This document shows positions 21,544-25,985 of a DNA stretch of 64,000 bases, piece after piece. The stretch comes from Verrucomicrobium sp. BvORR106 (GTDB lineage Bacteria; Verrucomicrobiota; Verrucomicrobiia; Verrucomicrobiales; Verrucomicrobiaceae). The notes below the pieces were generated by a model, which was given only the letters and a program-made list of their open reading frames with translations, had not been told where the DNA came from and did not search any database. The position numbers and the translations under genes were made by a program. The stretch covers positions 1 through 64,000 of the forward strand of contig NZ_BATR01000103.1 of assembly GCF_000739655.1 (NCBI RefSeq). Reading direction: 5' to 3'. How positions within the stretch are numbered: position 1 is the stretch's first letter; each line of letters starts with the position of its first letter.

Positions 21544-24333
21544 ATGTCTTGTGCTTGGTTGGGACACAAGACCTTGGAAACGAATCCCGCCTCAACACTG
21601 ATCGAACATGGATTTAAACTCCTTGATGAGGAGTTGTCCTTTCTCATGGAAGCCTTTGCCGCGGCCCTGCGCCGGATTGGCGAGCCCGAACTGGCCGACC
21701 GCATGCCCTGGACGGGGCAGCCGCTGCCAGAACAATCCGGGCCCAATCGACCGCTGTGCCAAGCCTACTCCACGGCCTTCCAGCTGCTGAACCTTGTCGA
21801 GGAGCGCGTCGCCCTGCAGGTGCGACGGCTCCGCGAAAAGGACCTCGGGCCGCTGGCGGAGCGGGGACTGTGGCCAGACAAGCTGGCCGCCATGCAGGGT
21901 CTGAATCTGGACGCCCGGGCCATCGTGGAAATCATGAAATCCGTGCGCGTGGAGCCCGTGCTCACGGCGCACCCGACGGAGGCCAAGCGCGACAGCGTGC
22001 GCGAGCGGCATCGCGAAATTTACGACCTGCTGGAGCGTCGGGAGAACCCGGCTTTCACTCCTCGTGAGCAAGAGCGTGTGCGCGGCTTCCTGGAGGCTCA
22101 GCTGGAGTCCCTCTGGCGTACCGGGGAAATCCACGTCACCCGGCCCAGCATCGCTGAGGAGCTGGAGAATGCCCTCTTCTTCTTGCGGGAGGTCTTCCCG
22201 GAGGCGGTCACTCGTACCCGGACCCATCTGCGCGAAGCTTGGATCGCGGCGGGGCTCGACCCCGTGGCATTGAAGGATCTGCCGCCCTTGATCCGCTTTG
22301 GTACCTGGATTGGCGGTGACCGTGACGGGCATCCGTTTGTGACTGCTGAGGTTACCAAGTCCTCCCTGCAATCCCTGCGCAACAACGCGCTCCGTCTCTT
22401 TGCCCGCAAGCTGGACCGCCTAGCCTACAATCTCCCGCTGAGCAAACACTTCCAGGAAGTGCCTGCGGTGTTGGAGGAACTCGTGGCCCGTCTGGTGAAA
22501 GAGCTGGAAGGGCACGAGGTCGTGGATGTGCCAGCCCTGCTGGATCACCACGATGAGGAGCCCTGGCGTCTGGCCGCCTCCCTTATGCGGGGCAAGCTGC
22601 TGCTGACGCGCGATCACCCCGAGGCGACCACGGTCTATGCCGAACCCGGTGCGCTGGATGCGGATCTTCGCCTGCTGGCGGAATGTCTGAGCGCGGTGGG
22701 GGCTGAGCACCTGGTGCAGGACTATGTGGACCCCTTGCGCCATCAGTTGGCCGCCTTTGGCTTCCATTCTGCGGTGCTGGACGTGCGGCAGAATTCGGCT
22801 TTTCACGAGAAGGCGCTCACCCAGCTTCTGGTAAAGGCGGGCGTGCCCAATGCGGCCACCTTCCCCAGTTGGTCGGAAGGCGAGAAACGGGCGCTGTTGG
22901 ACCACGAACTGGCCTCACCCCGCCCGTTCCTTTCCCCCGGTCTCTCGGCGGGGCCGGATGCGGATGCGGTGATAGAGTGTTATCGCGTGCTGGCAGAGTA
23001 TCGTGCCCGCTATGGTGGGGCTGGACTCGGCTCGCTGATTGTTTCCATGACCCGCGGGGTGAATGACCTCCTCACGGTCTATGTGCTGGCACGGGAGGCG
23101 GGTTTGATTGAGCTCACCCCGCAGGGCCTGCGCAGCCCGTTGCCGGTGGTGCCTCTGTTTGAGACCATGGACGATCTTGCCCATGCACCTGCCGTGGTGG
23201 ACGATTTCCTCGCCCATCCGGTCACCCGTATCAGTCTCACGGGGGGTGGCGGCAGCAACACGCCTGACTTCCAGATGATGCTGGGCTACTCAGACTCCAA
23301 CAAGGACTGCGGCATCTTCGCCAGCCAGTGGGGCCTGCATCGTGCGCAAGAAGCCTTGTTTGAGGTGACGCGCCGTCATGGCGTGCGCCCCGTCTTCTTC
23401 CACGGTCGTGGAGGCACAGTGGGCCGCGGCGCTGGTCCTACCCATTGGTTCATGGAGGCACTGCCTCATGGCTCACTCGGTGGCTCCTTCCGCATGACGG
23501 AGCAGGGTGAGACCATTTCCCAGAAGTACTCCCATCTCGGCTCTGCCACCTACCAGGTGGAGACGCTTACTGCTTCCGTATCCGCCGCCACGGCCAAGCA
23601 TCGGCACGCGCCCAAGCCAGCCGATCCCTGCCGTGAGATCCTGGACCGGATCGCGGGCTACAGCATGGAGGCCTACCGTGGCCTCCTGCATGCGCCGGAC
23701 TTCATCACCTTCTACCGCGAGGCGACACCCATTGATGCGCTGGAGAACTCCCGCATCGGTTCGCGTCCCTCCCGCCGCACCGGACGTGCCAGTTTGGAAG
23801 ATCTGCGGGCCATTCCGTGGGTCTTCTCCTGGACTCAATCCCGCTTCTATCTGCCCGGCTGGTACGGGGTGGGTGCCGCCTTCGAGCGGCTCAAGGTTGA
23901 AGCTCCGGAAGACTATGCTGCTTTGGAAGGCAGCATCTCGGAGTCCAGCTTCCTCCGCTACGTTCTGACCAACATGGACGGCTCCATCGTCAGCGCGAAT
24001 GAAGAGATCATGCTGGCTTACGGCTCCTTGGTTGCGGATGAAGCCATCCGGACGCGGTTCATGGAACAGATCATCGCTGAGTTTCATCGTACCCGCGATC
24101 ATCTGGCGAACATTTTGCATGGCGGCGGGTTTGGCTCCCGACGGCCCCGCATGGCCCGCACGCTCCAGGTGCGCGAGGAGCCGCTCAAGGTGCTGCACCA
24201 CCAGCAGGTGGCGCTGCTGAAAGAGTGGCGTGCGCTCACCGCAGCCGGGGACACCGCCGCTGCGGAGGCCATGATTCCAGATCTGTTGATCTCGATCAAT
24301 GCCATTGCTTCGGGGTTGAGGACGACGGGATAG
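21544..24333 (+). CDS. ppc: Phosphoenolpyruvate carboxylase
   Basis: 929 residues. Carboxylates PEP with bicarbonate to oxaloacetate, the anaplerotic entry to the TCA cycle; mdh lies 11 kb downstream. Signatures: VLTAHPTEAKRDSVRERH with the catalytic His near residue 140, and FHGRGGTVGRGAGPTH with the essential Arg; LGYSDSNKDCG is also intact. The C-terminus ends in TTG rather than the usual NTG. The start is uncertain: ATG at 21544 is used, but the frame is open back to a TTG at 21508 that overlaps the preceding gene. Confidence 0.97.
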   Translation: MSCAWLGHKTLETNPASTLIEHGFKLLDEELSFLMEAFAAALRRIGEPELADRMPWTGQPLPEQSGPNRPLCQAYSTAFQLLNLVEERVALQVRRLREKDLGPLAERGLWPDKLAAMQGLNLDARAIVEIMKSVRVEPVLTAHPTEAKRDSVRERHREIYDLLERRENPAFTPREQERVRGFLEAQLESLWRTGEIHVTRPSIAEELENALFFLREVFPEAVTRTRTHLREAWIAAGLDPVALKDLPPLIRFGTWIGGDRDGHPFVTAEVTKSSLQSLRNNALRLFARKLDRLAYNLPLSKHFQEVPAVLEELVARLVKELEGHEVVDVPALLDHHDEEPWRLAASLMRGKLLLTRDHPEATTVYAEPGALDADLRLLAECLSAVGAEHLVQDYVDPLRHQLAAFGFHSAVLDVRQNSAFHEKALTQLLVKAGVPNAATFPSWSEGEKRALLDHELASPRPFLSPGLSAGPDADAVIECYRVLAEYRARYGGAGLGSLIVSMTRGVNDLLTVYVLAREAGLIELTPQGLRSPLPVVPLFETMDDLAHAPAVVDDFLAHPVTRISLTGGGGSNTPDFQMMLGYSDSNKDCGIFASQWGLHRAQEALFEVTRRHGVRPVFFHGRGGTVGRGAGPTHWFMEALPHGSLGGSFRMTEQGETISQKYSHLGSATYQVETLTASVSAATAKHRHAPKPADPCREILDRIAGYSMEAYRGLLHAPDFITFYREATPIDALENSRIGSRPSRRTGRASLEDLRAIPWVFSWTQSRFYLPGWYGVGAAFERLKVEAPEDYAALEGSISESSFLRYVLTNMDGSIVSANEEIMLAYGSLVADEAIRTRFMEQIIAEFHRTRDHLANILHGGGFGSRRPRMARTLQVREEPLKVLHHQQVALLKEWRALTAAGDTAAAEAMIPDLLISINAIASGLRTTG

Positions 24334-24340
24334 GGGATTC

Positions 24341-24399
24341 GGTGCGTCGGTGCGTCGGTGCGTCGGTGCGTCGGTGCGTCGGTGCGTCGGTGCGTCGGT
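24341..24399. repeat. Octanucleotide tandem repeat
   Basis: Seven perfect copies of GGTGCGTC plus a 3-bp remainder, starting 8 bp past the ppc stop codon. Confidence 0.95.
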
Positions 24400-24473
24400 T
24401 GGGGGTTCGAGGTATCTTGAGCCTCCAGCGTGATGCTGGCCTGCAGTGGGTCCTTCTTCGGGGGGGAGCAACA

Positions 24474-24516
24474 CCTGGATGCGGAGCATCTTTGGGTCTG
24501 CGGCGAGAATCGCCGC
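24474..24516 (-). repeat. Two-hairpin element, copy 1
   Basis: Read on the minus strand: hairpin GCGGCGA-TTC-TCGCCGC, linker AGACCCAAA, hairpin GATGC-TCC-GCATC. It is homologous to, and in inverted orientation with, copy 2 at 24619. The outer stem carries a C-G pair where copy 2 has T-A. Confidence 0.8.
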
Positions 24517-24587
24517 TTTTGGGAGTCCTGTGTGGGGCAAGTAGCCTGTGTGTGCAGCGGAGTTCGTGAGTTTTATCGGGGACCAAC

Positions 24588-24601
24588 AGGTAGGAGTACC
24601 T
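24588..24601. repeat. Short palindrome between the two elements
   Basis: AGGTA-GGAG-TACCT, roughly midway between copies 1 and 2 of the two-hairpin element. Confidence 0.5.
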
Positions 24602-24618
24602 CACAAGGCCCTGCCAAA

Positions 24619-24665
24619 GCGGTGATTCTCACCGCAGTCCCAAAATCCTGCTTCGCAGGATCAGG
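24619..24665 (+). repeat. Two-hairpin element, copy 2
   Basis: Hairpin GCGGTGA-TTC-TCACCGC, linker AGTCCCAAA, hairpin ATCCTGC-TTC-GCAGGAT. Same architecture as copy 1 with stem changes that keep base pairing. Confidence 0.8.
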
Positions 24666-24699
24666 CGGAGGATGCAGTGGGTAGTGGGGTGTGTGTTCG

Positions 24700-24778
24700 G
24701 CTTCCCGTTTCGCGGGGTACTGAACCGGCGGGACGCCAGTAGCACGCACCGGCTGGAAGCCGATGCCACTTTTCATTT
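24700..24778 (-). repeat. Dispersed repeat of the FQPV / TGVPPV type
   Basis: On the minus strand this DNA would read IGFQPVRATGVPPVQ, a string seen in spurious ORFs from dispersed repeats in Verrucomicrobia and Planctomycetes. It contains the hairpin CGGCT-GGA-AGCCG (24750-24762). I do not consider it a gene. Confidence 0.55.
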
Positions 24779-24863
24779 CACTTGCACTCCGTCTCTTCAG
24801 CCGTATCCAGTGGCCAGTTCATCTCCTGAATGTCTCCCGTCGTCACACGCCCTAAATGGCAAC

Positions 24864-24900
24864 ACCGCTGGCTTTGGCTGCTCAAGCCAAAGGGCGCGGT
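24864..24900. repeat. Long hairpin
   Basis: ACCGC, then CTTTGGCT-GCTCA-AGCCAAAG, then GCGGT: an 8-bp perfect inner stem and 5-bp outer stem separated by a small internal loop. Related in sequence flavour to the CCAAAGCGG ends of the two-hairpin elements. Confidence 0.7.
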
Positions 24901-25005
24901 GGTCAAGTGACGCGCTGGATGACTGAAACGTAAGCCATTAAGTGGCGCGATTTTCCCGGATCCAGCAGCAGGCTAGGTGCCTGCCAGGCTTCTCTCTTCT
25001 CTACC

Positions 25006-25040
25006 CGCCCGACGCTCCCAGCCTCGGGCGTTTTTGTTTT
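25006..25040 (+). terminator. Rho-independent terminator in front of the DMT gene
   Basis: Perfect 7-bp stem CGCCCGA / TCGGGCG, 11-nt loop, then TTTTTGTTTT. It lies 42 bp upstream of the DMT start and more than 670 bp after ppc, so it ends a transcript that starts inside the intergenic region or attenuates the DMT gene. Confidence 0.8.
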
Positions 25041-25082
25041 CATGCCCCAGTTTCGCATTGCTTTCCCTTGTCCCATTGACCC

Positions 25083-25985
25083 ATGTCCCGCAGTTTCAAA
25101 TCCTCGCTTCTAACCTTTCTGATCGTCGCTGGCAGTTCGCTGTTCTTCTGCTCTAAAGCCGTGTTCGTGAAGCTGGCCTACCGCTATGGGCTGGATGCCG
25201 TCACGACACTGGCGCTGCGCATGGCCATGGCCTTTCCGTTTTTTCTGATCGGTGGCATCTGGGCTTCGTCTGGCAAGCATGTGAAGCCGCTCACGGGTCG
25301 CGACTGGGCTCGACTGGCCTTAGTTGGATTTTGCGGATGGTACTTCTCCTCCGTCATCAACTTCATGGGCCTGGAGCACGTGAGCGTGGGCTTGGAGCGG
25401 ATGATCTTGTACACCTATCCGTCCATTGTCCTGCTGGGTTCTGTGTTGATCTTGCGCAAGCCGTTGAAGTGGGGCGTAGCGGGAGCCATGTTGCTCTCCT
25501 ACCTCGGCATCTTGATCGGCTACTATGCGGAGGCCAGTGCCAAAGCAGGTGGGGAGACTTGGCTGGGAGCGCTGCTGGTGTTCGGCAGTGCGATCTCGTA
25601 TGCTATCTTCGTCCTGCTCAGTGGGGAAATGATCTCGCGAATCGGTCCCATCCGCTTCACCTCCTGCGTGGTGGGTTTCTCCTGCCTCTATGTCCTCATT
25701 CACTTTGTGCTCACGCATCCACCGGGGGCCATCTTAAAACTGCCTCCAGGTGCCTATGGCTGCGGGGTGGCTCTGGCCATTGCGGGGACGGTTATACCCT
25801 CTTACCTGTTCGGCATCGGGCTCAAGCGCGCCGGTGCCCAGGCCTTTGCGGTGATTGGGATGATCGGCCCCCTCGGCACCGTCGGCCTCGCCTGGATGCT
25901 CCTGGGAGAGGCCATCAATCCCGTGCAGGTGCTGGGACTGGCGCTGACCCTGGCGGGCGGAGTCATCGTGGCGATGAAGAAGTGA
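25083..25985 (+). CDS. DMT superfamily (EamA) transporter
   Basis: 300 residues with about ten membrane helices in two EamA repeats. The first repeat has FCSKAVFVKLAYRYGLDAVT and the second the analogous GTVIPSYLFGIGLKRAGAQA and ending LALTLAGGVIVAMKK. Family members export amino acids, nucleosides or sugars; the substrate is not predictable. ATG at 25083, 42 bp after a terminator. Confidence 0.88.
   Translation: MSRSFKSSLLTFLIVAGSSLFFCSKAVFVKLAYRYGLDAVTTLALRMAMAFPFFLIGGIWASSGKHVKPLTGRDWARLALVGFCGWYFSSVINFMGLEHVSVGLERMILYTYPSIVLLGSVLILRKPLKWGVAGAMLLSYLGILIGYYAEASAKAGGETWLGALLVFGSAISYAIFVLLSGEMISRIGPIRFTSCVVGFSCLYVLIHFVLTHPPGAILKLPPGAYGCGVALAIAGTVIPSYLFGIGLKRAGAQAFAVIGMIGPLGTVGLAWMLLGEAINPVQVLGLALTLAGGVIVAMKK

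Follow-up and report, generated by a model that had tools for sequence, protein, structure and literature searches.

An inverted pair of two-hairpin repeats in Verrucomicrobium sp. BvORR106, a probable REPIN/BIME-like element from a family of RAYT-associated repeats in Verrucomicrobiales

Two-hairpin arms between a PEP carboxylase and a transporter gene

The window, by which we mean the whole stretch of 64,000 nucleotides analysed, carries an intergenic repeat element whose neighbours, read in the same direction, are genes for PEP carboxylase and an EamA-type transporter (both assigned with Pfam). The original prediction had placed an inverted pair of two-hairpin elements here, and a direct reading of the window sequence found both arms in place. 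When the joint pattern of an arm was searched with up to three mismatches, it occurred exactly twice in the 64 kb and never in 100 shuffled sequences, whereas the core of hairpin 1 alone, with two mismatches, gave four matches against 1.8 expected, which is near chance. The site is common to three species, being retained in G003, which we take to be probably V. spinosum (87% identity over 1.9 kb), and in Verrucomicrobium sp. BvORR034 (G001; 84%). The parts of the element are as follows.

24421-24440, minus strand: GCCAGCATCACGCTGGAGGC, a possible outer palindrome (our own reading), beginning 79 nt from the first base of the AAAG foot of arm 1
24464-24537, minus strand: arm 1, with A-type leader; full covariance-model match, 83.7 bits
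24478-24490, minus strand: hairpin 2 of arm 1 (GATGC-TCC-GCATC), covarying helix 2 of the family
Between hairpins 1 and 2 of arm 1, minus strand: linker AGACCCAAA
24500-24519, minus strand: AAAG foot and hairpin 1 of arm 1 (GCGGCGA-TTC-TCGCCGC)
24520-24532, minus strand: A-type leader of arm 1, CACAGGACTCCC(A)
24538-24596, no strand: inner spacer separating the two arms, with 57/59 positions identical in G003 and 27/59 in G001
24597-24675, plus strand: arm 2, with B-type leader; full covariance-model match, 69.8 bits
24600-24615, plus strand: B-type leader of arm 2, CTCACAAGGCCCTGCC
24616-24635, plus strand: AAAG foot and hairpin 1 of arm 2 (GCGGTGA-TTC-TCACCGC)
Between hairpins 1 and 2 of arm 2, plus strand: linker AGTCCCAAA
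24645-24661, plus strand: hairpin 2 of arm 2 (ATCCTGC-TTC-GCAGGAT), covarying helix 2 of the family

Typed by their leaders, the two arms form a head-to-head A-B pair; both were among the 64 sequences from which the covariance model was built. The element extends further than first noted, through the leaders and, by our own reading, the outer palindrome at 24421-24440. The latter sequence is kept in all three species and may be a diverged form of an outer palindrome seen elsewhere in the family, GCCTCCGAyrTCGGAGGC, although that pattern itself has no match at this position. Folded as single-stranded DNA, each arm performs better than its shuffles on either strand (z of -2.15 to -3.15), and a single long hairpin forms from the region 24400-24720 (z of -5.4). 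The palindrome predicted between the arms at 24588-24601 amounts to no more than a 5-bp stem with a 4-nt loop; it is retained in G003, but it is absent from G001 and is for this reason not counted as a part of the family.

The surroundings hold further features. Directly after the PEP carboxylase stop codon lies a tandem repeat of the eight-base unit TCGGTGCG (24339-24399; 7.6 copies), whose length varies in G001 and G003 and which has similar sequence at many places in both. A second dispersed repeat of about 50 bp adjoins the element at 24719-24772, with many matches of roughly 81-95% identity in the same two genomes. It is followed, upstream of the EamA gene, by a non-coding block (24772-25034) that is better kept than the stretch preceding it (95% to G003, 90% to G001) and has a terminator-like hairpin at its end (25011-25032). 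This block had no Rfam match at E ≤ 1 and is possibly a new small RNA or leader.

A dispersed repeat family with covarying stems

The genome of BvORR106 (G000; 8.69 Mb in 209 contigs) holds the AAAG foot with hairpin 1 at 73 places when up to two mismatches are allowed, against none for the reversed pattern. A genome-wide search with a covariance model, proposed beforehand as a check, returned at least 145 matches at E ≤ 0.01 (150 of 5356 candidates were scored), and the model has matches in 24 of 57 genomes, BvORR106 included. These are short palindromic repeats at high copy number, with the extragenic position established for the window copy. Each arm follows one plan, namely AAAG, hairpin 1, CA(C/G)TCC(C)AAA, hairpin 2 and CAGGTGTTG; leaders, linker and tail are common to the copies, while hairpin 2 takes the form of many unrelated sequences.

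For the analysis of covariation, candidate arms that were cut by locus ends or had no tail were skipped; 71 stood at the last filter, and the removal of five without a CAC/CAA leader and of two clear false positives left 64 aligned arms. RNAalifold, unprompted, found the same two helices in this alignment and recovered 11 of the 12 pairs. Paired bases fill 98.4% of the 768 pair cells (754 Watson-Crick, 2 G-U and 12 other), compared with 80.1% in shuffles and 21-64% when the helix positions were slid as a control. Both sides change at 8 of the 12 pairs, although the count of further pair types lies below that of all 500 shuffles. Hairpin 2 covaries at all five of its pairs and, since it lay outside any search pattern, these five are free of search bias. 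The compensatory exchange of C-G for T-A that had been noted in hairpin 1 of the window arms is real: the pair concerned (columns 29:37) is T-A in 33 of the 64 copies, C-G in 31 and mixed in none, even though the search pattern permitted mixed pairs. As there is almost no G-U in the covarying pairs, the stems point to DNA hairpins. This covariation characterises the family, with its different palindromic types, rather than demonstrating an upkeep of each copy. Indeed, the selection on folding that had been proposed for the two window copies was not borne out, as by our own reading the G001 orthologue shows a one-sided change in two of the four stems and a compensated change in none.

The arrangement of the arms was examined on 139 of them, that is, the 145 model matches less six with E above 0.001. 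Another arm lies within 250 bp of 96 of the 139. Among neighbours closer than 1500 bp, 38 pairs are head-to-head, 32 of them with gaps of 50-94 bp, and 21 are tail-to-tail, 16 of them with gaps of 66-71 bp. Twenty-eight head-to-head pairs were inspected, and the 22 that could be typed at both arms comprised 20 A-B and two B-B pairs; tail-to-tail pairs were A-B in 8 of 14 cases. Furthermore, pairs are repeated in tandem arrays on contigs C76 (period 289) and C203 (period 280-281), so that both the inverted pairs and the arrays that mark REP, BIME and REPIN repeats are present. In 27 of 70 other arms, the outer palindrome begins 79 to 83 nt beyond the first base of the foot. With three mismatches it was found three times in the window against 1.7 expected, which is near chance; with two mismatches it was found five times in 400 kb against 0.2 in shuffles. 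As four of these five stand at the outer ends of arms, it is provisionally treated as part of the element rather than as an independent target site; a site on contig C108 that is devoid of arms nevertheless holds a form of it.

In BvORR106, contigs C54, C62, C82, C83, C102, C113, C114 and C175 end in or close to arms. The repeats therefore seem to break the assembly, and the gaps may hide arrays or a transposase gene. In another genome (G004, C1), many arms among the matches listed crowd into about one-ninth of a single-contig chromosome, at about 2.0-2.9 Mb.

Transposase genes among the arms, and the system across the genus

Clustering of the open reading frames in loci with arms brought out, in four genomes, a divergent protein family of the REP-associated tyrosine transposase (RAYT) kind, of about 185 aa and with the motif NHYH, and four of the proteins were scanned. 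The NCBIfam model NF047646 (REP-associated tyrosine transposase) scored 75-86 bits, placing two of the four above its cut-off of 80, while Pfam Y1_Tnp was reported below its cut-off for three and was not reported for the fourth. The IS200 model NF033573 matched one of the four at 17 bits, where its cut-off is 55, and had no match in the other three; Pfam detected no helix-turn-helix in any of them. The sole significant PDB match was TnpA-REP (4ER8, E = 2.4e-10). In an alignment of 24 proteins, which omits seven of the loci L287-L314 as cut, broken or otherwise unchosen (L293, L297, L300, L302, L303, L312 and L314), NHYH, the catalytic tyrosine and the N at +4 are invariant; the residue after the N of Y-x-x-x-N is P in 14 and A in 10, and 41-57 residues lie C-terminal of the tyrosine. 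Judged by sequence, then, the HUH motif, the single tyrosine in a Y-x-x-x-NP context and the kinship with TnpA-REP suit the transposase of a REPtron. At E ≤ 1e-15 the gene, distant paralogues included, was detected in 31 of the 57 genomes, with 0-6 gene matches per genome. G003 also contains multi-copy proteins of about 355-361 aa in which the Y1_Tnp match is split in two (for example at C1:4066157-4069166), perhaps a TnpA-Y1 family with inserted domains.

The foot motif AAAGC-hairpin-GCA(C/G)TC(C/A), with a stem of at least four pairs, occurs at 25 of 30 RAYT loci (those fetched out of 63 match rows) and on both sides of the gene in 20 of these 25. It occurs at none of 40 other Y1_Tnp loci, which comprised 14 of the 18 matches in BvORR106 itself (the other four are further pieces of proteins already counted) together with every locus from L143 to L168, 26 in number. 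The covariance model, at E ≤ 0.01, placed arms at 13 of the 30 and at one of the 40. When RAYT loci were split by score, a division made after the linkage had been seen, the motif was present at 25 of 28 close loci in its strict form and 27 in a relaxed form (one of 28 in reversed sequence), compared with none and one of 13 distant loci, and none and one of the 40 controls. Among seven further close matches (above 190 bits), five have the relaxed motif, one of which (L366) shares its coordinates and contig number with L288; it is absent at L374 and L380. The stems differ between genera along with the RAYT locus, and the feet and their position stay constant. The constancy of the feet is partly by construction, because those of the motif were taken from the Verrucomicrobium copies; neither the stems nor the position beside RAYT genes was preset in this way. 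The strict motif catches only one of the two window arms, because arm 1 reads AGACC.

The original prediction had also looked to a linked REP-associated tyrosine transposase. Such a gene, flanked by these repeats, is present in related genomes but was not found in BvORR106, where the search gave six matches at E ≤ 0.001, all of them distant and all more than 5 kb away from the listed arms. A probe with Pfam PF01797 gave 18 matches in this genome, with a convincing arm by regular expression only at L033; the covariance model, applied to 14 of its Y1_Tnp loci, likewise found an arm only there, about 600 bp away. The RAYT-like gene at L033 was rejected as the cognate transposase since a different two-hairpin repeat stands closer to it. 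This repeat, GGGCTGAAGGCCC with CCAGGGCAACGCCCTGG, flanks the gene (L033, 600-2400), and the two apparently constitute a second REP system. A 754-bp tail-to-tail gap on contig C73 was also considered as a place for the gene; by eye, it holds a 182-aa lipoprotein-like reading frame instead.

With no cognate RAYT found, the copies in BvORR106 look orphaned; they seem to be left from a transposase that was lost or is not assembled, and an assembly gap possibly hides one. G003 (8,220,857 bp) has two RAYT copies of this type, each between arm pairs and one with an in-frame stop, and G001 has one with a broken frame as well as pieces at the ends of two contigs. At the orthologous place of one G003 cassette, the cassette is absent from both G000 and G001, which have other sequence there, in G000 a different 101-aa reading frame. 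At other orthologous sites, one species lacks arms or has them in multiple copies, and BvORR034 is without one arm of a pair that is present in BvORR106; the orthologous sites compared yielded no clean empty site with a precise junction. At the window site, G003 keeps the arms as well as the spacer, and in G001 the arms are 68/74 and 65/79 identical to those of G000. We propose that the window copy is an old insertion between the PEP carboxylase and EamA-type transporter genes.

Explanations, the foot sequence and known systems

We conclude, with a probability of roughly 0.87, that the two window arms together form a non-autonomous, REPIN/BIME-like element belonging to a family of RAYT-associated repeats in Verrucomicrobiales, most likely within a REPtron/REPIN-like system with an unusual foot. 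The dispersed family and the RAYT linkage in relatives thus favour the REP/BIME-like or RAYT-mobilised nature that had been suggested at the outset; we infer mobilisation by the RAYT from this linkage, and its recognition and cleavage of the arms, like the strand assigned to the foot, are inferred as well. The A- and B-leader arms, standing head-to-head, can fold into one long hairpin. An HUH Y1 transposase of the RAYT family, encoded between such arms in relatives, would act on single-stranded DNA, such as the lagging-strand template, where it would recognise the feet and hairpins and use its tyrosine to cleave next to them, so that the arm pair is moved or copied. Arrays and lone arms may stem from alternative processing, duplication or deletion, and the loss or missing assembly of the transposase would leave orphan copies such as those of BvORR106.

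Selection on RNA folding, in a structured non-coding RNA or a cis-acting signal such as a terminator, attenuator or mRNA stabiliser, might be read from the strong covariation of the family, from the TTT that follows hairpin 1 on the complement of each arm, and from the site between two co-directional genes. However, the scarcity of G-U (2 of 768 cells), the similar folding of both strands and the one-sided stem changes in the G001 orthologue speak against it, and it leaves the linkage to RAYT genes unexplained. Terminator and Rfam readings were rejected, as no terminator-like site lies at either arm (the only one found is that at 25011-25032) and Rfam gave no match, either for the whole window at the gathering score or for 24300-25100 at E ≤ 1; on balance, an RNA signal is very improbable. 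Remnants of an ordinary IS200/IS605 element or a MITE, with left and right ends, deserve marginally less credence still. The A/B heterodimer does resemble distinct left and right ends, and RAYTs and IS200 transposases are described as one superfamily (PMC6006769), but the proteins encoded beside the arms have their matches in TnpA-REP and in the model for REP-associated tyrosine transposases, and all 24 aligned proteins read Y-x-x-x-N, not the Y-x-x-x-Q given in the signatures of the same paper, so that an IS200 transposase with Y-x-x-x-Q and subterminal hairpins was not what we found. Furthermore, genomes have 0-6 gene matches against tens to more than 100 arms.

A different matter is whether the arms are sites for a host protein (gyrase, IHF, or a nucleoid or chromosome-organising factor) that are under selection, with the RAYT merely using them or sitting among them. 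This would be compatible with the element proposed here, and BIMEs and REPs are indeed described as binding sites (PMC2817692). It could explain why the arms of G000 and G001 are kept so much better than the spacer (27/59), and why similar hairpins occur, among the matches listed, in genomes of other phyla where this RAYT was not found. On the other side, stem sequences vary by genus in step with the RAYT locus, the spacer is kept as well as the arms between G000 and G003 (57/59), and no such protein is known; we consider such a role unlikely, if clearly less so than the two preceding explanations. As to chance hairpins, the four matches of the hairpin 1 core against 1.8 expected would allow them, but the joint pattern (two against none in shuffles) and the 73 genome copies (against none reversed) led to their rejection, and their probability is negligible.

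Among known systems, the REPtron/REPIN/BIME repeats with TnpA-REP of E. coli, Stenotrophomonas and Pseudomonas, as described in PMC2817692 (which lists REPs and RAYTs), PMC8266576 and PMC3116915, are like the present family in their many dispersed palindromes, inverted pairs and arrays, in the RAYT gene flanked by the same palindromes and in stems that vary with the RAYT locus. They differ in having a GT(A/G)G foot in place of the AAAG / CA(C/G)TCC of the arm strand here. Verrucomicrobium arms, moreover, have two hairpins each and form mostly A-B heterodimers when head-to-head, the hosts are Verrucomicrobiota, and the window genome is without a found cognate RAYT. The TIRYT/TIRtron elements, presented in PMC3733652 together with GTAG and CGTC repeats, are similar in that RAYT-like genes lie between inverted repeats other than GTAG, some of which form repeat families and some 'double palindromic TIRs' of two palindromes. 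PMC6006769, which gives the signatures of TnpA-Y1 subclasses, assigns 20 of the 26 TIRYTs described to subclass 2.1, which has helix-turn-helix tails and, in most flanks, GGGGWSAS; here GGGGWSAS is present in only 1 of our 64 arms, and Pfam showed no C-terminal helix-turn-helix domain in the four scanned proteins. The signatures of subclass 2.8 in that paper (NHYH, W(Y/H), YIHYNP, about 199 aa) appear to fit roughly: the present proteins have NHYH, W followed by H or Y in many, Y-V/I-H-x-N(P), about 180-200 aa, a proline-rich N-terminus (WPHAPPH) and flanking palindromes. The foot does not fit, since subclass 2.8 is assigned to Cyanobacteria with GT(A/G)G-footed long REPs. REP families with dimers are also described in Verrucomicrobiota, in Opitutus terrae (PMC3733652), but those are GTAG-tagged. 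The words 'Verrucomicrobium' and 'spinosum' are absent from the main text of PMC3733652, as is 'verrucomicrob' from the available text of PMC12306157, and the literature searched, where most subscription journals were out of reach, gave no description of an AAAG-footed family.

The feet of an arm are AAAG and CA(C/G)TCC, and the complementary side reads TTTGGAGT. On the arm strand, GT(A/G)G is missing from the 8 nt 5' of both stems in all 64 arms, and the GTAG/GTGG tetranucleotide at the palindrome end of REP, BIME and REPIN repeats is thus lacking there. On the other strand, GT(A/G)G occurs near hairpin 1 in 8 of 64 arms, by our own reading within TGTGGAGT, and near hairpin 2 in none, and a degenerate canonical foot may be read on this strand. 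Since the protein might read either strand, 'AAAG foot' is a label for a conserved sequence and not for a demonstrated recognition site.

Beyond the order, the pattern AAAGCGGNNATNCTNNCCGCANTCC also occurs, among the matches listed, in Lentisphaeria UBA2565 (at least six loci), in a MAG labelled Akkermansia muciniphila, and in Armatimonadota and Planctomycetota MAGs; matches in Clostridia and Oscillospiraceae MAGs, Dyella, Gluconobacter, Arthrobacter and Rhodanobacter resemble chance or coding sequence. Seventeen genomes were chosen from this list, of which eight have a RAYT match at E ≤ 1e-10 and four a strong one (above 190 bits), the latter labelled Verrucomicrobia, Verrucomicrobiia, Verrucomicrobiales and Haloferula. 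The RAYT alignment search of these 17 gave no match in the Lentisphaeria, the Akkermansia-labelled or either Planctomycetota genome, and three of the four Armatimonadota loci have no motif, the fourth (L373) having a single relaxed match with a long loop. In Lentisphaeria UBA2565 (L182 and L242), a second recurring palindrome, GTCGTCGAGGGACTCTCCGAC, lies close to AAAG-footed hairpins.

It is tempting to regard AAAG...CA(C/G)TCC as a third superfamily of RAYT feet beside GTAG and CGTC, with fixed feet and changing stems, that accompanies a single RAYT subfamily across the Verrucomicrobiales; its palindromes are seen in Lentisphaerota, Planctomycetota and Armatimonadota as well, in genomes that yielded no cognate RAYT. 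We offer this tentatively, being more doubtful than confident of it, since the GT(A/G)G seen near hairpin 1 on the opposite strand (8 of 64 arms) could mean that the foot is a derived canonical one, which makes a third superfamily less likely. If it were true, another transposase might share the foot, or orphan repeats with a host role might survive for long; the last two bases of the foot, AG as in GTAG, would then suggest the same guide logic in the choice of the cleavage site.

Foot-guided cleavage has been demonstrated in PMC8266576, and the experiments on repeat reading by RAYTs described there deal with palindromes that have GTAG feet, from E. coli, Stenotrophomonas and Marinomonas. With its AAAG...CA(C/G)TCC feet, its stems that vary by genus and the RAYT among them, the present family would provide natural pairs with which to probe the reading of foot versus stem. 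Finally, the genus offers contrasting states of one system, with one intact RAYT and one carrying an in-frame stop in G003, a broken one and pieces at contig ends in G001, and none found beside about 145 arms in BvORR106, which makes it possible to trace how orphan repeats persist and decay.
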